Part shown: positions 26,562 through 36,194 of the stretch, piece by piece
How positions within the stretch are numbered: position 1 is the first letter of the stretch
How the letters are laid out: every line of letters starts with the position of its first letter
Assembly (NCBI GenBank): GCA_003242895.1
Contig: QKMY01000062.1
Coordinates: 1-64,000 of the forward strand
Reading direction: 5' to 3'
Length of the DNA stretch: 64,000 nucleotides
From: Candidatus Margulisiibacteriota bacterium
GTDB taxonomy: Bacteria; Margulisbacteria; Riflemargulisbacteria; GWF2-39-127
Translations under genes and position numbers: made by a program
Notes under the pieces: model-generated
Told to the model about the DNA's origin: nothing
Seen by the model: the letters and a program-made list of their open reading frames with translations, nothing else
Database searches by the model: none

Positions 26562-26753
26562 ATGTTAATTCTCGTTGGTTTATTATCGCTTATCGCTATA
26601 GGAATCGGAACAATGCTCATTAATCTCTCAGAAGGGGATAATACAGTAAGTATGGTCTCATTCTGGGTTGGCATATTAGTTGTCATCGGAAGTCTTTACT
26701 TTGTAGTCCTTACCCTCATAAACCCTTCTGTCATCACAGGAACTGCTCTTTAA
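26562..26753 (+). CDS. small two-helix membrane protein
   Basis: A 63-residue hydrophobic protein with two predicted membrane helices (about 2-20 and 30-52) joined by a short polar loop with SEGDN. GGTGGA lies seven bases before the ATG, which supports translation. No family is recognised. It sits alone between the Gld group and the MerR-DegV gene, and it could be a non-functional open frame. Confidence 0.5.
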   Translation: MLILVGLLSLIAIGIGTMLINLSEGDNTVSMVSFWVGILVVIGSLYFVVLTLINPSVITGTAL

Positions 26754-26881
26754 ATATTTTTTTGGCATTTTATTAACGTCAAATAATAATACGGTCCAAT
26801 TATTAACTATAATTTTTAATAAATTTAGGCTATACTTTATGCGAAAATACAATTGATTGATTTTGAAAGGATATGAAAACT

Positions 26882-27991
26882 ATGGATAATCGAAAATATT
26901 ATAAAATAAGTGAAATATCCGATATTCTTAAAATAACTACAAGAACTATACGCTATTACGAGCAGGAAGGACTCTTAAGCTCAGTAACCAGGACTCCTGG
27001 CGGGATGAGGCTTTTTACCGAAAAAGATGTTGAGTTAATTAAACAAATACGAGGTTTACAAAAAGATGAATTTCTCTCGTTAACACAGATAAAAGAACAA
27101 CTGACAAACGAATCCGTAGAGAATATAGATCAGGAAGAAAACATTGTCATCGTTACGGACAGCACAGCTTCTCTACCAAAAATGATAATCGATGACCTGA
27201 ACATCCGGATAATCCCACTTAATATCATACTCGATGGGAAAACGTATAAAGATGGGGTCGACATTAATGCTATCGATTTTTTTAATAAAGTGAACGGTAG
27301 TAATTACAAAGCAACGACGGCCCCGCCTTCGCAAGAGTCATTGGTTCAGCTCTACCAAAGTCTGGCAAAGTCCGGATACACAAAAATTTTATCAATTCAT
27401 ATCGCCAACCATTGGAGTGAGACCTTCGCTACCGCGCAGTCAGCGGCAAAGCAAGTCAGCAACGTTCACATCGAAGTGGTTGATTCATTTAACACAGGAT
27501 TGGGAATGGGACTTTTGGCCTATGTTGCAGCAAAGATGGCTAAAGAGAAAAAAAAATTTTCATATATAATCGCAGAAATTAAAGAAAAAAGAAAACGTTG
27601 CTGGCAAATCATGTACATCAATTCTCTTGATTATTTCATTCAGGGTGTAGATAAAACAACTATTCAAGGAGAGCTATTAAATACCTTACTGGATTACAAA
27701 CCCATTTTATTCTACAACCCGGAATACGGAAAATTCACTGTCACCGACCGCACGAATAATCCGGAAGAAGCGGTGACGAAACTGCTCAAATCCATCAAAG
27801 ATTACGAAAAAGAATACGGACGGATCTTCCGGTATGTAGGCATTACCCATAGTTATTTTTACCAGGAAGCATACGAACTTATGAAAAGGATTAAAGCTAC
27901 ATTTCCTTATGTAAACGTTATTATCGCTGAAGCATCGCCGATAATAAATACCTATGTTGGATTTTATTCAATGAGCATGAGTATATGTTAG
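26882..27991 (+). CDS. MerR-type DNA-binding domain fused to a DegV fatty-acid-binding domain
   Basis: About 369 residues. The first 75 are a MerR winged helix (KISEISDILKITTRTIRYYEQEG, then TPGGMRLFTEKDVELI). After a short acidic linker, from about residue 88 onward, is a DegV/FakB domain: VTDSTASLPK, the IIPLNIILDGKTYKDGVD block, TTAPPS and EVVDSFNTGLGMGLL. DegV/FakB proteins bind a single fatty acid. The usual SGT motif, whose serine contacts the carboxylate, reads SET here. The gene lies directly upstream of the fatty-acid operon, so a lipid-responsive regulator is a natural inference. ATG at 26873 also fits but would abut the AAAGGA site; 26882 has looser spacing, so the start is uncertain. 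Confidence 0.88.
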   Translation: MDNRKYYKISEISDILKITTRTIRYYEQEGLLSSVTRTPGGMRLFTEKDVELIKQIRGLQKDEFLSLTQIKEQLTNESVENIDQEENIVIVTDSTASLPKMIIDDLNIRIIPLNIILDGKTYKDGVDINAIDFFNKVNGSNYKATTAPPSQESLVQLYQSLAKSGYTKILSIHIANHWSETFATAQSAAKQVSNVHIEVVDSFNTGLGMGLLAYVAAKMAKEKKKFSYIIAEIKEKRKRCWQIMYINSLDYFIQGVDKTTIQGELLNTLLDYKPILFYNPEYGKFTVTDRTNNPEEAVTKLLKSIKDYEKEYGRIFRYVGITHSYFYQEAYELMKRIKATFPYVNVIIAEASPIINTYVGFYSMSMSIC

Positions 27992-28126
27992 CGGGTGTAA
28001 AATCAGAATCGGACTTTCACCGCGAACAAAAAATATCTTATCAATTTTTCTTTTTAGAGCTGCCGGACACGTCTGTCACGCTGAGAGCGTAGTTCATACG
28101 ATCAGCCCGGAGAATACTCAGCGTAT

Positions 28127-28210
28127 TCAGGTAACAATCCTGCCATCAACCAGGTGAACCTGGCGAGCCAGACTGGCAAAACCCTGATCATGGGTCACCA
28201 TACGTATTGA
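28127..28210 (-). pseudogene. C-terminal remnant of a MacB/LolD-type ABC ATPase
   Basis: On the minus strand a 27-codon open piece reads MVTHDQGFASLARQVHLVDG and then RIVT before a stop. This is the H-loop region and C terminus of a LolD/MacB-type ATPase. It is bounded upstream by a stop at 28213-28211 and no Walker A or signature motif is present, so it is a fossil. GC content is higher than in the surrounding DNA. Confidence 0.7.
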
Positions 28211-28219
28211 CTATTCATG

Positions 28220-28249
28220 TTGACAACTAACAAAAACGTACTATATAAT
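28220..28249 (+). promoter_or_regulatory. near-consensus promoter of the yceD-fab operon
   Basis: TTGACA (28220-28225), 18-base spacer, TATAAT (28244-28249): both hexamers are perfect. A GTTGACAAC palindrome covers the -35 box, and AAACG/CGTTT arms (28234-28238 and 28257-28261) flank the -10. Either could be an operator, which is speculative. MerR proteins usually favour promoters with longer spacers of 19-20 bases. Confidence 0.75.
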
Positions 28250-28269
28250 GCTTAGGCGTTTCAAGATCA

Positions 28270-28821
28270 ATGACAAAGAAGGCCACCCTAGTGAAAATTG
28301 ATTTATCTTCTATCCTCAAAGAGGTTGGAAGCAAACAGCATATTGAGATATCAGAGGCCATGGATTTTCATGATGAGCCTTTGGAGTTAACGAAACCGGT
28401 CAATGTCAACGCTGACATTACTAATACTGGAAAATCAATACTGCTTAAGGGAGTCGTTAGTACAGAAATCAAACTTGATTGCGGAAGATGCTTAAATAAA
28501 TATAATTTCCCGCTACATTTTCGAATAGAAGAGCAATACTGTAAAAACAGCAAAGACTATAAAGACATTACAGGTGAAATAGAGTTAACCGATGAAGACT
28601 TTGTCTATTTAATAGAAGAAGACAATACTATTGACCTTTATGAAATTATAAGGCAAAATATTATAGCACAGATACCAATAAAACCCCTTTGCAGCCTAGA
28701 TTGTATAGGAATACAAGTAATAACCGATACTAAAGAGGAAATAGATCCTCGGTTTGCAAAGCTGAAAGAGTTTAAAGAGCGTCATTTAAAAGATAAAAAT
28801 AATGAATGGAGGAATAATTAA
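28270..28821 (+). CDS. yceD: YceD/DUF177 family protein
   Basis: A 183-residue protein of the DUF177 family, almost always encoded just before rpmF and the plsX-fab genes, as here. Landmarks are the KLDCGRCLN and IKPLCSLDC cysteine pairs, typical of the family and probably a metal site. In several bacteria the gene affects 23S rRNA maturation, but the mechanism is not settled. It is the first gene of the fatty-acid operon and abuts rpmF without a gap. Confidence 0.9.
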   Translation: MTKKATLVKIDLSSILKEVGSKQHIEISEAMDFHDEPLELTKPVNVNADITNTGKSILLKGVVSTEIKLDCGRCLNKYNFPLHFRIEEQYCKNSKDYKDITGEIELTDEDFVYLIEEDNTIDLYEIIRQNIIAQIPIKPLCSLDCIGIQVITDTKEEIDPRFAKLKEFKERHLKDKNNEWRNN

Positions 28822-29013
28822 GTGGCAGTACCTAAACATCGACATTCTAATGCGAGAACAAGATCTCGTCGAGCACATTGGAAAATAACAATCCCGGAAT
28901 CTACAAAATGTCCGGCATGTAACGAAGTAATAAGACCATATACAGCTTGCTCTAATTGTGGACAATACAAAGGAAGACAAATTCTTACCACAAAAAGCAG
29001 TAAGGAGCAATAG
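28822..29013 (+). CDS. rpmF: 50S ribosomal protein L32
   Basis: A 63-residue ribosomal protein. The N terminus AVPKHRHSNARTRSRRAHWK is diagnostic. The zinc-ribbon form is present: CPAC then CSNCG. The start is GTG, immediately after the yceD stop (TAAGTG). The downstream plsX starts after 7 bases. The yceD-rpmF-plsX order is conserved across many phyla. Confidence 0.97.
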   Translation: MAVPKHRHSNARTRSRRAHWKITIPESTKCPACNEVIRPYTACSNCGQYKGRQILTTKSSKEQ

Positions 29014-29020
29014 CTAAATA

Positions 29021-30004
29021 ATGAGACTGGCTGTAGATGCGATGGGGGGAGACAATGCCCCAGCTGCAGTAGTTGAAGGGTCAGTTAAAGCAGCAAAAGC
29101 CTACAAGGTAGAAATTGTCCTTGTAGGGAGAAAAGATGACATCCAACATGAGCTAAACAAATACTCATACCCGAATGATTTAATTTCAATCCACCATGCT
29201 TCCGAAATTATTTTAATGGATGAAAGTCCTGTTGCTGCTATAAAACAAAAAAAGGACTCATCTATTAATGTAGCAATAAACCTGCTAAAAACCAAGCAAG
29301 TAGATGCCGTTATATCTTCCGGCAACACTGGCGCATATATGACAAGCGCTCTCCTGAATATCGGAAGGATACACGGAATCGAACGACCGGCTATCGCTAC
29401 ACTAATTCCCACTCATAATTCAAAAACCATGTTCCTCGACATGGGTGCCAATGTTGATTGTAAACCTAAACATCTCTACCAATTCTCACTTATGGGTAAT
29501 GTATTTGCAAAAGAAGTTTTAGGCATCGCCCACCCCAAAATAGCATTATTAAATATTGGAGAAGAAGAAGAAAAAGGCAATGAGCTTACATTTGCAACCT
29601 ACAAATTATTAAAAGCCTGTAAAGAGATAAACTTTATAGGGAATATCGAAGGAAAAGATGTTCTCACAGGCCGTGCTGACATAATCATTTGTGATGGCTT
29701 TGTCGGAAATATGCTGCTCAAGTTCGGAGAAGGATTGGGGCTCTATCTGGGTAACATTCTAAAGAAAGAAATCAAAAACAGCATTTTCGCAAAAATCGGC
29801 GCTGTATTCCTATATCCGTCATTACAGCGCATAAGAAAATTCATAGACTACGATGAATATGGAGGCGCCCTTCTTTTAGGCATTAACGGTATCTGCATTA
29901 AAGCCCACGGCAGAGCTAACGAAAAGGCATTCCAGAATGCTATAAAGGTAGCAATTGATTCAGTCGATCACAAAATAATTGATATTATCAAAAAGTCATA
30001 CTAA
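29021..30004 (+). CDS. plsX: phosphate acyltransferase PlsX
   Basis: A 327-residue peripheral membrane enzyme that turns acyl-ACP and phosphate into acyl-phosphate for PlsY, starting phospholipid synthesis. The N-terminal MRLAVDAMGGDNAP is the hallmark motif. SSGNTGAYMTSALLNIGRI and DGFVGNMLLKFGEGL are further conserved blocks. The operon links ribosome assembly (rpmF), phospholipid synthesis and FASII. Confidence 0.97.
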   Translation: MRLAVDAMGGDNAPAAVVEGSVKAAKAYKVEIVLVGRKDDIQHELNKYSYPNDLISIHHASEIILMDESPVAAIKQKKDSSINVAINLLKTKQVDAVISSGNTGAYMTSALLNIGRIHGIERPAIATLIPTHNSKTMFLDMGANVDCKPKHLYQFSLMGNVFAKEVLGIAHPKIALLNIGEEEEKGNELTFATYKLLKACKEINFIGNIEGKDVLTGRADIIICDGFVGNMLLKFGEGLGLYLGNILKKEIKNSIFAKIGAVFLYPSLQRIRKFIDYDEYGGALLLGINGICIKAHGRANEKAFQNAIKVAIDSVDHKIIDIIKKSY

Positions 30005-30023
30005 CCAGGAAGAAGGTTGAATA

Positions 30024-31025
30024 ATGGCAGAAAACAAAATCTCTGCAGGTATTATTGGTGTTGGCTCTTGTGTACCGCCAAAAGTTGTAACAAATGATGA
30101 CATTGCAAAGATGGGGCTCGAAACTTCCGATGAATGGATTCGTGCACGTACCGGTATCGGAGAAAGAAGGCTTGCTGACAACCTCAGCACATCTGACCTG
30201 GCCCTTCAGGCATCAATAAATGCACTAAAAAGCGCAAACAAAAGACCTGAAGAAATTGACCTTATAATTACTGCGACCTGTACTCCCGATCATCCGCTAT
30301 TTCCTTCCGTAGCCTGCATAATCCAAGATAAACTTGGGGCCAAAAACGCAGCTGCATTTGACCTGTCTGCTGCTTGTTCCGGATTTGTTTATGCGCTAGC
30401 CACCGCATCTCAATTTATTGAAGCCGGAAGTTTTAAAAACATTCTTGTCATTGGGGCTGATACTCTCGCAAAAAACGTCGATTGGACAGATCGTGGTACC
30501 TGTATATTATTCGGAGATGCCGCAGGAGCAGTAATCCTATCGGCCGTTCCTCACGGCGAAGGGATTCTTTCATGGACTTTGGGAGCACAAGGTTCAGGCG
30601 GCGATTTGCTTATTATTCCGAATGGGGGATCAAGAACTCCCCTTACTCCTGAAAATATTACAGAAAGAAATCACTATATTAAAATGGATGGAAGGGCGGT
30701 TTTTAAATTTGCTGTCTCCATCGTTATCGATTCTATCGAAAAGAGTCTGTCAAAAGCAGGGCTCTCAAAGAAAAATATCGATTACTTTATTCCTCATCAG
30801 GCGAACAAACGAATAATTGACTTTGCTGCCGAGCGGCTAGGCTTGTCCGAAGAAAAAGTCTGTGTTAATATCATGAATTACGGAAATACCTCATCAGCAT
30901 CTATACCTCTTGCTCTTGACGAAGCGGTTACTGCAGGAAAAGTAAAAAAAGGAGATTTGGTTGCCATTATGGGCTTTGGTGGGGGTCTGACTTGGGGATC
31001 TGCTATTTTCAGATGGATGGCATAA
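30024..31025 (+). CDS. fabH: 3-oxoacyl-ACP synthase III
   Basis: Initiates fatty-acid synthesis by condensing acetyl-CoA or another acyl-CoA with malonyl-ACP. It has 333 residues. The Cys-His-Asn triad is Cys118 in AFDLSAACSGFV, the His in FIPHQANKR (about 251) and the Asn in NYGNTSSAS (about 281). Branched or straight primer preference cannot be read from the sequence. A ribosome site (AGAAGG) precedes the ATG after an 18-base gap. Confidence 0.97.
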   Translation: MAENKISAGIIGVGSCVPPKVVTNDDIAKMGLETSDEWIRARTGIGERRLADNLSTSDLALQASINALKSANKRPEEIDLIITATCTPDHPLFPSVACIIQDKLGAKNAAAFDLSAACSGFVYALATASQFIEAGSFKNILVIGADTLAKNVDWTDRGTCILFGDAAGAVILSAVPHGEGILSWTLGAQGSGGDLLIIPNGGSRTPLTPENITERNHYIKMDGRAVFKFAVSIVIDSIEKSLSKAGLSKKNIDYFIPHQANKRIIDFAAERLGLSEEKVCVNIMNYGNTSSASIPLALDEAVTAGKVKKGDLVAIMGFGGGLTWGSAIFRWMA

Positions 31026-31128
31026 CAAGATAATAGGCACATCAAAAATATGCAACAGCCAAATACGAGTACGTTTTTTTTTAAGAAAAAAGAGAGATTC
31101 ATTAAATAAAAGGAAGGGGCATTATTAT

Positions 31129-32289
31129 ATGATGGATTATGGCTTAACTGAAGAACAAAAAATGATCAGAGATTTAGCAGCAAAAATTGCTAATGAGAGA
31201 GTACTCCCGGCAAGGGCAGAACTCGACGAAAATGGAGAATTTCCTTGGGAAATCATGAATTGCTGCGCAGAAGCAGGCTTATTCGGGATCTATATCCCAG
31301 AAGAGTACGGCGGTTTTGGTGCAGGAGCATTCGAGTCAATTCTTGCAATAGAAGAATTAAGCAAAGCATGTATCGGTGTATCGGTTTCTTATGCAGCTAG
31401 CGGATTGGGAAGTTATTCAATATTATTATTCGGGACCGAAGAACAAAAGAAAAAATATTTACCTGATATAGCAGCAGGGAAAAAACTAGCAGCATTCGGT
31501 CTTACCGAAGCAAACGCAGGAAGCGATGCCGGTGGCATTCAAACCACGGCAGTCCTTGATGGGAACGAATATGTTATCAATGGTACCAAACAATGGATCA
31601 CGAACGGCGGAGAAGCAGAAACTTACACCGTTGTTGCGATGACAAACAAAGCCAAAGGCGCCAGAGGAGCGAGCACCTTTATTATTGAAAAAGGCACACC
31701 AGGGTTTTCTTTCGGAAAAAAAGAAAACAAAATGGGTATAAGAACATCCGCAACTCGAGAACTCGTATTCGAAAACTGCAGAATTCCTAAAGAAAATATT
31801 CTAGGGAAAGAAGGTATGGGGTTTCTTATTGCAATGAAAACCTTAGATATGTCACGACCAGGTATCGGAGTTCAAGGTGTAGGGCTTGCTCAGGGTGCAC
31901 TTGATTTAGCTGTCCAATATGCCAGAGAGCGCGTTCAATTCGGCAAACCGATTATTGCAAACCAGGCCGTACAACATATGCTTGCAGATATGGCAATGCA
32001 GACTGAAGCAGCCAGAGCTCTCGTATATGCAACAACACGTTTTATGGACGCAGACAGCGGCAGCTATTCCAAAGAGTCAGCTATGAGCAAATGCTTTGCG
32101 GCTGATGTAGCGATGAAAGTTACTACCGATGCCGTTCAGATCCTTGGCGGGTATGGCTATATGAAAGAATATCCTGCTGAAAAGATGATGAGAGATGCAA
32201 AGATTCTTCAGATTTATGAAGGAACAAATCAGATTCAACGAAATGTAATAGCACAATGTCTAGTCAAAGAAGCAGCATCTAAAAAATAA
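31129..32289 (+). CDS. acyl-CoA dehydrogenase (short-chain/butyryl type)
   Basis: A 386-residue FAD enzyme that interconverts acyl- and enoyl-CoA. Signature blocks are GLTEANAGSDAGG (FAD/substrate), QWITNGG and the C-terminal QIYEGTNQIQRNVIA, in which Glu364 is the catalytic base typical of short- and medium-chain enzymes. etfB and etfA follow directly, so electrons go to or come from EtfAB. Its placement inside a fatty-acid synthesis operon is unusual. It could reduce enoyl groups, as Bcd-Etf does in butyrate formers, or carry out beta-oxidation. Confidence 0.93.
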   Translation: MMDYGLTEEQKMIRDLAAKIANERVLPARAELDENGEFPWEIMNCCAEAGLFGIYIPEEYGGFGAGAFESILAIEELSKACIGVSVSYAASGLGSYSILLFGTEEQKKKYLPDIAAGKKLAAFGLTEANAGSDAGGIQTTAVLDGNEYVINGTKQWITNGGEAETYTVVAMTNKAKGARGASTFIIEKGTPGFSFGKKENKMGIRTSATRELVFENCRIPKENILGKEGMGFLIAMKTLDMSRPGIGVQGVGLAQGALDLAVQYARERVQFGKPIIANQAVQHMLADMAMQTEAARALVYATTRFMDADSGSYSKESAMSKCFAADVAMKVTTDAVQILGGYGYMKEYPAEKMMRDAKILQIYEGTNQIQRNVIAQCLVKEAASKK

Positions 32290-32300
32290 ATTAATTTCAG

Positions 32301-32330
32301 GGGGCAAAATAATATTTGCCCCTTTCGTTA
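32301..32330 (+). terminator. hairpin between acd and etfB (attenuator-like)
   Basis: GGGGCAAA (32301-32308) and TTTGCCCC (32315-32322) form a perfect 8-bp stem with a six-base loop, followed by TTTCGTTATT. It may partially terminate transcription or stabilise mRNA ends, since the genes downstream appear to belong to the same operon. Confidence 0.6.
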
Positions 32331-32353
32331 TTCATAACGAGGAGGATATATTC

Positions 32354-33139
32354 GTGGATATTATTGTATGTATAAAACAAGTTCCTGATACAAGCGACGT
32401 TAAAATCAATCCTGAAACCAATACATTAATGAGAGAAGGGGTTCCCAGCATAACGAATCCATTCGATGAAAATGCAATTGAAGCTGCTCTGCATCTCAAA
32501 GAAAAAGTTGGAGGCAACGTAACTGTCGTCAGTATGGGCCCACCGCAAGTTGAAAGTGCTCTGAGAGACGCTATAGCTTTAGGGGTAGATAATACCGTAC
32601 TAATAAGCGATCGCGCGTTTGCAGGCGCAGACACTTGGGCTACATCGTATACCTTGGCGAAAGGCATAGAAACCCTTGGCAAATACGATTTAATAATCTT
32701 CGGCAAACAAGCAATTGATGGAGATACAGCACAGGTTGGACCGGGGGTGGCAGAATTTTTGAATATCCCGGTAGTTACCTACGTAAGAAAAATAGTTGAA
32801 GTTAAAGACAACATAATAACCGTTGAGCGAATGTTTGAAGATGGCTATGAAGTTATTGACATCAAACTTCCTTGTGCAATAACTGTACTTAAAGAAATTA
32901 ACACAATAAGAATGCCATCCCTCAAAGGAAAAATGAAGGCAAAAACTGCGGTTATCGACAAACTGTCTGCCCAGGATATTAATGCAGATCTCTCATTGTG
33001 CGGACTTAACGGATCACCAACGCAAGTAGTCAAAATATTTACGCCGCCGCCAAAAGGCAAAAGAGAAATGCTGTGCGGAGAAATCTCAGAAACAGTTTCA
33101 TGTTTATGCCAAAAACTTAAAGATCTGAAAGCTATTTAG
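32354..33139 (+). CDS. etfB: electron transfer flavoprotein beta subunit
   Basis: A 261-residue partner of EtfA, a flavin/AMP-binding electron carrier. The N terminus MDIIVCIKQVPDTSDVKINPETNTLMREGVPSI... and the central FGKQAIDGDTAQVGPGVAEFL block are diagnostic. It starts with GTG after a strong GAGGAGG site. It sits between the acyl-CoA dehydrogenase gene and etfA. Whether this Etf is bifurcating depends on a second FAD site that I cannot verify by eye. Confidence 0.95.
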   Translation: MDIIVCIKQVPDTSDVKINPETNTLMREGVPSITNPFDENAIEAALHLKEKVGGNVTVVSMGPPQVESALRDAIALGVDNTVLISDRAFAGADTWATSYTLAKGIETLGKYDLIIFGKQAIDGDTAQVGPGVAEFLNIPVVTYVRKIVEVKDNIITVERMFEDGYEVIDIKLPCAITVLKEINTIRMPSLKGKMKAKTAVIDKLSAQDINADLSLCGLNGSPTQVVKIFTPPPKGKREMLCGEISETVSCLCQKLKDLKAI

Positions 33140-33150
33140 GAGGACAAAAT

Positions 33151-34323
33151 ATGGGTATTTCAGTTAATGATAATTGTATAGGTTGCAGCCTTTGCGTTAG
33201 AGTCTGTCCTTTTGGTGCAATAGTTATCGAAGAAGAAAAGGCAATCATTGCTGACAATTGCACTCTTTGCGGCTCATGTGAATCAGTCTGCAAATTCAAG
33301 GCAATCACGATAGAACGAAATGAAATGACTGCCAAAGACCTTAATGAATATAAAGGAGTCTGGGTATTTGCCGAACAGCGCGAAGGAAAGCTGCAAGAAG
33401 TATCACTCGAACTACTTGGCGAAGGAAAAAAACTAGCCGCAGAATTAGGAGTTGAGCTTTCTGCCGTAATTTTTGGCGACAATGTTTCACAGGCAGCGAA
33501 AGAACTGATTGAATACGGAGCACAAAACGTTTATATGGCTGAGAATCCTCAATTAAAGAATTTTGCTGTAGAATCTTACACTGATGTTATGAGCGATCTC
33601 ATTAAAAAGTTTAAACCGGAAATAGTACTCGCAGGAGCAACCAGCGTCGGACGCGCATTTATTCCTCGAGTTGCAATCCGGGTTAAAACAGGACTCACAG
33701 CTGACTGTACAGAACTGGCAATTGACGAGAAAAAAAGATTACTTTTACAAACACGACCGGCATTTGGCGGCAATATTATGGCAACAATAATATGCCCGAA
33801 TCACAGACCGCAAATGGCAACAATTCGTCACAAAGTATTTAAAAAAGCAACGAAAGACAGCGCACATCAAGGAAAAATCGTGTCGTTCACACCAAATATA
33901 ACCAGCAACCTCGTTACGGTAAAAGAAGTCGTTTACGAAATGCAAAACAAAATTAACATTTCAGAAGCAGATATTATTGTTTCTGGAGGAAGAGGGATAG
34001 GTAAGCCGGAAGGATTTACACTTCTTGAGCAGCTTGCTAAGGTATTAAACGGAGCTATCGGGGCAAGCCGTGCCACAGTTGACGCCGGGTGGATACCTGC
34101 CTACCATCAAGTAGGCCAGACAGGGAAAACTGTTTGTCCGAAACTTTATATAGCCTGCGGAATATCAGGGGCAATTCAACATCTTGCCGGGATGCAGAGT
34201 TCTGACATTATTATCGCCATCAATAAAGATCCGGGCGCTCCGATATTTAACGTAGCTACATTCGGTATTGTTGGTGATCTCTACGAAATTATACCCGCGA
34301 TGCTAAAGGAGTTAAATAAATAA
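33151..34323 (+). CDS. etfA: electron transfer flavoprotein alpha subunit with N-terminal 2[4Fe-4S] ferredoxin domain
   Basis: A 390-residue EtfA. Residues 1-55 form a bacterial ferredoxin domain with two complete cluster motifs: Cys9/12/15/19 (CIGCSLCVRVCP) and Cys37/40/43/47 (CTLCGSCESVCK). The Etf body follows, with the FAD-binding C-terminal block GRGIGKPEG...GASRATVDAGWIPAYHQVGQTGKTVCP. Ferredoxin-fused EtfA proteins occur in anaerobes and allow direct exchange with low-potential carriers, which hints at an anaerobic life style. The fabD gene starts 2 bases after the stop. Confidence 0.95.
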   Translation: MGISVNDNCIGCSLCVRVCPFGAIVIEEEKAIIADNCTLCGSCESVCKFKAITIERNEMTAKDLNEYKGVWVFAEQREGKLQEVSLELLGEGKKLAAELGVELSAVIFGDNVSQAAKELIEYGAQNVYMAENPQLKNFAVESYTDVMSDLIKKFKPEIVLAGATSVGRAFIPRVAIRVKTGLTADCTELAIDEKKRLLLQTRPAFGGNIMATIICPNHRPQMATIRHKVFKKATKDSAHQGKIVSFTPNITSNLVTVKEVVYEMQNKINISEADIIVSGGRGIGKPEGFTLLEQLAKVLNGAIGASRATVDAGWIPAYHQVGQTGKTVCPKLYIACGISGAIQHLAGMQSSDIIIAINKDPGAPIFNVATFGIVGDLYEIIPAMLKELNK

Positions 34324-34324
34324 C

Positions 34325-35173
34325 ATGAAGACTGCTTTCGTTTTTCCAGGACAGGGATCTCAATTTGTAGGGATGGGAAAAGACCTTCCAAACCAGGAAA
34401 TTTTTGACCAGGCAAATAACGTTTTAGGATTTGATCTAAAACAACTATGCTTAAACGGTCCTGAAGATGCACTAAAGCTAACCCAGAATGCTCAGCCGGC
34501 AATTTTTACTGTAAGCTATATGCAATTCAAGCTACAAGAGGTGCAACCGGACATCGTAGCCGGACATAGTCTCGGTGAATATACCGCACTTTGCGCCGCA
34601 GGAGTGCTGGATTTTGAAACAGCGCTCACTCTCATACGTGTCCGTGGGCAACTTATGGAAAAAGCTGTTCCTGCTGGACAAGGAACGATGGCAGCCATAC
34701 TCGGAATGGATCAGGAATCGCTCAAAAAAGTCTGTGATTCGGTTGACGGCAAAGCACAAATTGCAAACTATAATTCCCCCGGACAAATTGTTATTTCGGG
34801 AACAACTGACGCTATAAAAAAGTGTTGTATTCTAATTTCTGACACTTATGGGAAAAAAGCAATTCCACTACCAGTAAGTGGCCCCTTTCATTCTCAATTA
34901 ATGAAGCCCGCTGCAGAACAATTTCGTGATTATCTAGATAAAGCTCCATTCAATGAACCAAAGATTCCGATTATCATGAACGTAACCGCCGATTATTTAA
35001 CATCCGCCAGCCTAACAAAAGAACTGTTGGTAAAGCAGCTATACTCATCCGTATTATGGCAGCAATCAATAGAAAAAATGCTTACGGCAGGAGTAGTAAC
35101 ATTCACAGAGATTGGTCCGGGCAAAGTTCTTTCCGGACTTATCAATAAAATCAAAAAGGAGTGGTCCAAATGA
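34325..35173 (+). CDS. fabD: malonyl-CoA:ACP transacylase
   Basis: Loads malonyl groups onto ACP for chain extension. It has 282 residues, slightly short for the family. FVFPGQGSQ at the N terminus, the nucleophile Ser82 in AGHSLGEYTALCA and the LPVSGPFHS histidine block are all intact. The stop overlaps the fabG start (ATGA). Confidence 0.97.
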   Translation: MKTAFVFPGQGSQFVGMGKDLPNQEIFDQANNVLGFDLKQLCLNGPEDALKLTQNAQPAIFTVSYMQFKLQEVQPDIVAGHSLGEYTALCAAGVLDFETALTLIRVRGQLMEKAVPAGQGTMAAILGMDQESLKKVCDSVDGKAQIANYNSPGQIVISGTTDAIKKCCILISDTYGKKAIPLPVSGPFHSQLMKPAAEQFRDYLDKAPFNEPKIPIIMNVTADYLTSASLTKELLVKQLYSSVLWQQSIEKMLTAGVVTFTEIGPGKVLSGLINKIKKEWSK

Positions 35174-35910
35174 ATTTAAAAGGTAAAGTTGCAGTTGTAA
35201 CAGGAAGTGGCCGTGGAATCGGGAAATCAATTGCGTTAAAACTGGCAAAAGCTGGAGCGGACGTAGTAATTAGTGATATTAACCTGGAAATTGCGCAAGC
35301 CACTGCTTCAGAAATCGAAAGCTTAGGCGTAAAAAGTATTGCTCTTAAATCAAATGTTGCCAATTCTGCCGATGTTGAAGAATTTTTCAAAGAAGTCTAT
35401 ACACAAATGGGAAAAGTTGATATATTAGTAAACAATGCTGGCATTACAAAAGATACTCTCATCATGAAAATGTCTGAAGATGAATGGGATGCAGTAATAA
35501 GCGTTAACCTAAAAGGTGTCTTTAACTGCACAAAAGCTGTTTACCGAAACATGATGAAGCAGAGATCAGGAAAAATCGTTAACATCGCATCAGTTGTGGG
35601 AATAACAGGGAACGCTGGACAGGCGAATTACTCCGCATCAAAAGCTGGAGTTATCGGTCTCACAAAAACAACCGCAAGAGAACTGGCATCTCGCGGGGTT
35701 AACGTAAACGCAGTAGCACCAGGTTTTATTGCTACAGATATGACAGATAAGTTATCTGATGAAGTTAAAGAAGCTGTAAATAAAAAAATCCCATTTGGTG
35801 AAATGGGTACACCAGAAGATATTGCTAATGCGGTATTGTTTTTAGCTTCTGAGGAGGCTAAATATATAACAGGACAAGTTCTTGTTGTAGATGGTGGCAT
35901 GGTAATGTAA
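35170..35910 (+). CDS. fabG: 3-oxoacyl-ACP reductase
   Basis: A 246-residue NADPH-dependent short-chain dehydrogenase that reduces beta-ketoacyl-ACP. The cofactor site is VTGSGRGIGKS, with NNAG after it. The catalytic Ser is in IVNIASVVG and the Tyr-Lys pair in YSASKAG. ATG at 35170 has AAGGAG eight bases upstream; a GTG three codons earlier is unlikely. Confidence 0.97.
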   Translation: MNLKGKVAVVTGSGRGIGKSIALKLAKAGADVVISDINLEIAQATASEIESLGVKSIALKSNVANSADVEEFFKEVYTQMGKVDILVNNAGITKDTLIMKMSEDEWDAVISVNLKGVFNCTKAVYRNMMKQRSGKIVNIASVVGITGNAGQANYSASKAGVIGLTKTTARELASRGVNVNAVAPGFIATDMTDKLSDEVKEAVNKKIPFGEMGTPEDIANAVLFLASEEAKYITGQVLVVDGGMVM

Positions 35911-35945
35911 TAGAATTTATAATATAGGTAATATAAAGGAGGTGA

Positions 35946-36194
<249 letters not shown>

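Follow-up and report, generated by a model that had tools for sequence, protein, structure and literature searches.

A MerR-DegV fusion protein of Margulisbacteria: a candidate one-component regulator encoded beside a fatty-acid synthesis operon

Introduction

DegV (FakB) proteins elsewhere are carriers that hold one fatty acid for the kinase FakA. The long dimerization helix of MerR-family regulators such as CueR and BmrR is missing from the HspR/GlnR-type relatives, which have a short MerR helix-turn-helix (HTH). In FakB, Arg173 is required for catalysis and Arg205 contacts both FakA and the membrane (PMC9136124, PMC8892158). Both arginines are completely conserved in FakB, and Thr62 and Ser95 of FakB1 hold the carboxylate of the fatty acid (PMC8892158). 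Known MerR regulators use palindromes within 19-20 bp spacers (PMC9909328, PMC8113463).

The window, by which we mean the whole 64,000-nucleotide stretch of DNA analysed here, comes from a 3.35 Mb Margulisbacteria genome (G000) and encodes a protein in which a MerR HTH is joined to a DegV domain. Like Staphylococcus aureus FakB1 (5uto/6mh9) and Bacillus subtilis DegV (3fys), this protein has a complete DegV fold with the equivalents of Thr62 and Ser95; unlike them it carries a fused HTH, has replaced Arg173, Arg205 and His270, and is without a matching FakA. With the MerR family it shares the MerR_1 winged helix and a conserved pattern of DNA-contact residues, but the long dimerization helix is missing, DegV would be the sensor, and no palindromic operator of the 19-20 bp type was found. 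Control of fatty-acid synthesis (FASII) in response to lipid, as proposed here, is a likeness to FapR, FabT and FabR/FadR, whose DNA-binding and sensor folds are different; no FapR match was found in the G000 genome.

Results

The gene and its predicted structure

Open reading frame analysis, Pfam and NCBIfam matches, homologues and an AlphaFold2 model together define a MerR-DegV gene of 372 codons at 26873-27991 on the forward strand, which is also the strand of its domains and residues, of the yceD-fab promoter and of the yceD-fab operon given below. Residues 10-78 (26900-27106) form the MerR winged HTH (PF13411 MerR_1, 2.6e-18, and the model) and residues 91-371 (27143-27985) the FakB-like DegV domain (PF02645, 8.2e-55), which matches profile positions 2-277 of 280 and NCBIfam TIGR00762 at 2.1e-59. 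Both domains are thus full length by Pfam and NCBIfam, in agreement with the preliminary description of a MerR domain joined to a complete DegV domain. The end coordinate given there, 28270, is the start of yceD, which lies 278 bp past the MerR-DegV stop codon; the MerR-DegV gene itself stops at 27991.

Seven residues of the HTH are invariant (T22, R24, T25, R27, R40, G43 and R46). In the model, which was built on 15 homologues with a mean pLDDT of 88.2, the HTH is followed by a helix (70-80), a low-confidence linker (81-86) and a DegV strand beginning at 91, and no long MerR dimerization helix was found after the HTH. The DegV part is predicted to adopt the FakB fold (best Foldseek E 2.0e-25, to 4x9x). 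Its closest superpositions are to chains 6mh9_A, 7sg3_A and 6nm1_A (rmsd 2.6-2.8 A, versus mostly 3.5-4.5 A elsewhere), which according to their authors are mutants captured in an open form (PMC8892158). Because model confidence within the DegV domain is lowest in the lid, we give this superposition no weight.

The putative fatty-acid site

Alignment to FakB1 places Thr149 (27317-27319) at Thr62 and Ser182 at Ser95, so that the first two members of the carboxylate network Thr62-Ser95-His270 (PMC8892158) are retained, while the third is replaced by Tyr361 (27953-27955). Glu183, encoded with Ser182 at 27416-27421, stands in place of the glycine (Gly96) of the S-G-T/S motif, and the motif does read SET (Ser182-Glu183-Thr184), as had been described. 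The tunnel residue Ala158 is replaced by Gln. Given the changes of His270 to Tyr, Gly96 to Glu and Ala158 to Gln, lipid binding may be altered or lost. The Thr62 and Ser95 equivalents are kept in the window's protein and in most MerR-DegV members; the predicted fold and these two residues suggest that the protein may sense a fatty acid.

The residues that FakB uses with its enzyme partner (PMC9136124, PMC8892158) have fared differently. Asp260 (27650-27652) replaces Arg173, whose equivalent is kept among MerR-DegV members only in genome G032, and Asn295 (27755-27757) replaces Arg205, whose equivalent has been lost from all members except that of G043. With these residues gone, the DegV domain probably has a sensor role.

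The kinase partner

Dak2, the kinase domain of FakA, is absent from 54 relatives; among 55 Margulisbacteria genomes, G000 alone has a match. There, a FakA-like gene with Dak2 and FakA_M domains (L002:432-1370, contig C60) overlaps the start of a downstream degV. No FakA_C domain, which docks FakB, was found in its product, and the adjoining degV is a fragment that has lost an internal part and is interrupted by a stop. The two genes, spanning L002:432-1790, have the appearance of a kinase-carrier pair in decay. Apart from MerR-DegV, the genome encodes no intact DegV. The loss of Arg173 and Arg205 and the near-absence of FakA from the phylum indicate that the window's DegV domain is most likely no longer a substrate carrier for a fatty-acid kinase.

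Distribution of the fusion

A family profile search identified 20 full-length MerR-DegV proteins in 74 Margulisbacteria genomes; a contig scan with a single protein as query gave no match. In about 12 further homologues the HTH can still be recognised but the DegV part is highly divergent. The fusion is missing from about half of the phylum's genomes, whereas plsX is present in almost all of them and in most cases belongs to its usual operon. No full-length match was found in the plasmids or phages searched, nor at 1e-60 in 201 Chloroflexota genomes in a search run without a positive control. Two DegV-only matches outside the phylum (L062 and L063, the latter from Chloroflexota) are standalone DegV proteins. 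Among the matches listed in the GTDB genome scan, the fusion is likely restricted to Margulisbacteria. No description of this architecture was found in the open-access literature searched. MerR-DegV is a genuine and conserved architecture, and to the extent of these searches one without prior description.

Mean identity across 19 members is 49.5% in the HTH, far above the 30.3% of DegV, which marks DNA binding as the conserved part. In L052, L053, L056, L057 and others, the DegV half has decayed almost past recognition with the HTH intact. That several lineages keep the HTH with a decayed DegV suggests that some of these proteins can do without the lipid site. The phylum also has a second DegV-containing family (L195:3805-5568, L176:402-2000, L198:2819-4333 and L200:2329-3969), about 500-590 residues long, with an N-terminal half lacking a Pfam match, a diverged DegV end and no Dak2.

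Genomic neighbours and phylogeny

Downstream of the window's gene lies yceD-rpmF-plsX-fabH-acd-etfB-etfA-fabD-fabG-acpP (28270-36194), assigned from open reading frames, homology and a YceD match, a possible target of the regulator. The acd-etfBA genes (31129-34323) between fabH and fabD, which encode an acyl-CoA dehydrogenase and EtfB/EtfA, had gone unmentioned in the preliminary description; acd follows fabH in many relatives as well.

The preliminary description had proposed control of the fab genes and had named a neighbour analysis without any fab association as one result that would refute it. An association does exist, but as that of a minority (2/20), being present in the window and in G032 and absent from the other 18 full-length members. 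Eleven of the 20 are in or beside rpsB-tsf-dgt-trx / lrp-aspC-purE-cvpA genes, six, all from genomes in the same class as the window, are flanked by fliE-tldD-pmbA-lptC on one side and TPR genes on the other, and one stands alone. G032 belongs to a different family from the window's genome. There, some 35 bases separate the end of the MerR-DegV gene from yceD, and rpmF and plsX follow up to the contig end; contig C118 of the same genome begins inside plsX and continues with fabH-fabD-fabG-fabF, so the contig break falls within plsX.

Of all members, these two FASII-linked proteins score highest for DegV (188 and 187 bits), and their DegV domains are the least derived. A tree that used two standalone DegV proteins as outgroup resolved the rpsB-tsf group (100/99) and the tldD group (100/100) as one clade each. 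The two FASII-linked proteins fall closest to standalone DegV, with weak support: the G000 protein branches nearest the outgroup (85/86), that of G032 is a long branch, and grouping of the two has support of only 44/2. A location beside fab in the ancestor is the simplest reading, though not a secure one.

Promoters and candidate operators

The perfect TTGACA-18-TATAAT promoter reported ahead of the yceD-plsX-fab genes is present at 28220-28249, where a promoter scan found it to be the only 12/12 match in 26600-28400. The fab promoters of three class relatives, in which MerR-DegV lies elsewhere, have similar near-consensus sigma70 hexamers, and beyond these no motif shared by the three is apparent by eye. 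The 18 bp spacer is shorter than the 19-20 bp usual where MerR proteins activate a promoter, and no inverted repeat with arms of at least 5 bp was found in 28195-28269.

The string GTTGACAAC, earlier put forward as a binding site over the -35, is the -35 hexamer itself with a chance flank. It occurs once in the window, versus 0.28 expected, and at least once in 24 of 100 shuffled windows, and was rejected as an operator candidate.

Upstream of the MerR-DegV gene, a dyad search gave a weak candidate operator not assigned to a strand, TAATAAT-8-ATTATTA (22 bp, 26784-26805), beside a TATAAT (26808-26813); it is no better than shuffles (172/500). A TAACGT(C/T)AA-like element is found upstream of MerR-DegV both in class relatives (L043-L048) and in the window (26770-26800). 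In four cases another copy with ACG follows 30 bp further on, and in several the element runs into the 3' part of the gene before it. The spacer at 27992-28210 has no Rfam family, unusual fold or terminator, and its sequence is unique in the genome; at 47% GC, versus 39% for the window, it is perhaps a gene remnant.

Discussion

The fusion joins a MerR HTH to a DegV domain, is conserved across 20 members and has lost its kinase and docking residues in a phylum nearly devoid of FakA. Our best explanation, for which we see the case and the doubts as evenly balanced, is that MerR-DegV is a one-component regulator of Margulisbacteria, in which a protein that once carried fatty acids has been put to use as a sensor. 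We infer ligand binding, allostery and a DNA target as follows. A MerR-type DNA-binding domain is joined to a FakB/DegV domain that has probably ceased to work with a fatty-acid kinase. Most likely, the DegV tunnel would be occupied by a fatty acid or a related amphiphile whose head group Thr149 and Ser182 would hold, and a lid that moves in response to the ligand would alter binding of the winged helix to DNA.

In G000 and G032 the likeliest target is the FASII operon next to the gene, and its control by ligand-sensitive repression is a possibility we place a little short of an even chance, as it is suggested by adjacency in two genomes. Any action on fab would more likely be repression than activation in the style of MerR. 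Members from other lineages must have a different target or reach it in trans. The earlier proposal of a lipid-sensing protein that controls FASII directly therefore holds in part: the 20 members, the constraint on the HTH and the lost kinase and docking residues argue for a one-component DegV regulator, but a fab linkage in 2/20 and the lack of a MerR-type operator speak against the direct link to FASII.

Credible, if somewhat improbable, is that the protein regulates its own gene or distant genes, with the adjacency to fab incidental and the yceD-fab operon expressed constitutively from its own strong promoter. This would fit the 18 of 20 relatives encoded elsewhere, the consensus fab promoter and its near-consensus counterparts in class relatives with MerR-DegV elsewhere, the weak dyad ahead of the gene and the TAACGT(C/T)AA-type element that is conserved ahead of it in class relatives. 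However, the same adjacency recurs in G032, from a different family, and we estimate the probability of such a recurrence under random placement at well below 1%.

It is unlikely that DegV is instead a ligand-free scaffold or dimerization module, or a binder of something other than lipid, standing in for the missing MerR coiled coil. The replaced His270, Arg173 and Gly96, the Gln at tunnel position 158, the decay of DegV in several lineages where the HTH stays and the lack of a dimerization helix in the model would all suit such a module; the Thr62 and Ser95 equivalents kept in the window's protein and most members, and the whole FakB fold predicted, argue against it. That MerR-DegV is still a FakB with an additional HTH, supplying fatty acids to the FakA-like protein of contig C60 whose own degV is broken, would fit the fact that no other DegV of the genome is intact, but is very improbable given Asp at catalytic Arg173, Asn at docking Arg205, a FakA-like protein without FakA_C and relatives that retain the fusion without any FakA.

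A rather doubtful but more specific scenario is that, in the ancestor of Margulisbacteria, a FakB located next to the FASII operon acquired a MerR HTH by fusion and served as a one-component lipid sensor for FASII after the kinase was lost, with two later lineages relocating the gene while its lipid site drifted. If this were true, MerR-DegV would represent a new class of FASII regulator. A DegV domain fused to a DNA-binding domain and conserved in an almost kinase-free phylum would show that a lipid-binding fold has been reused as a transcription sensor, and MerR-DegV would be a first candidate for how Margulisbacteria adjust membrane lipid synthesis.
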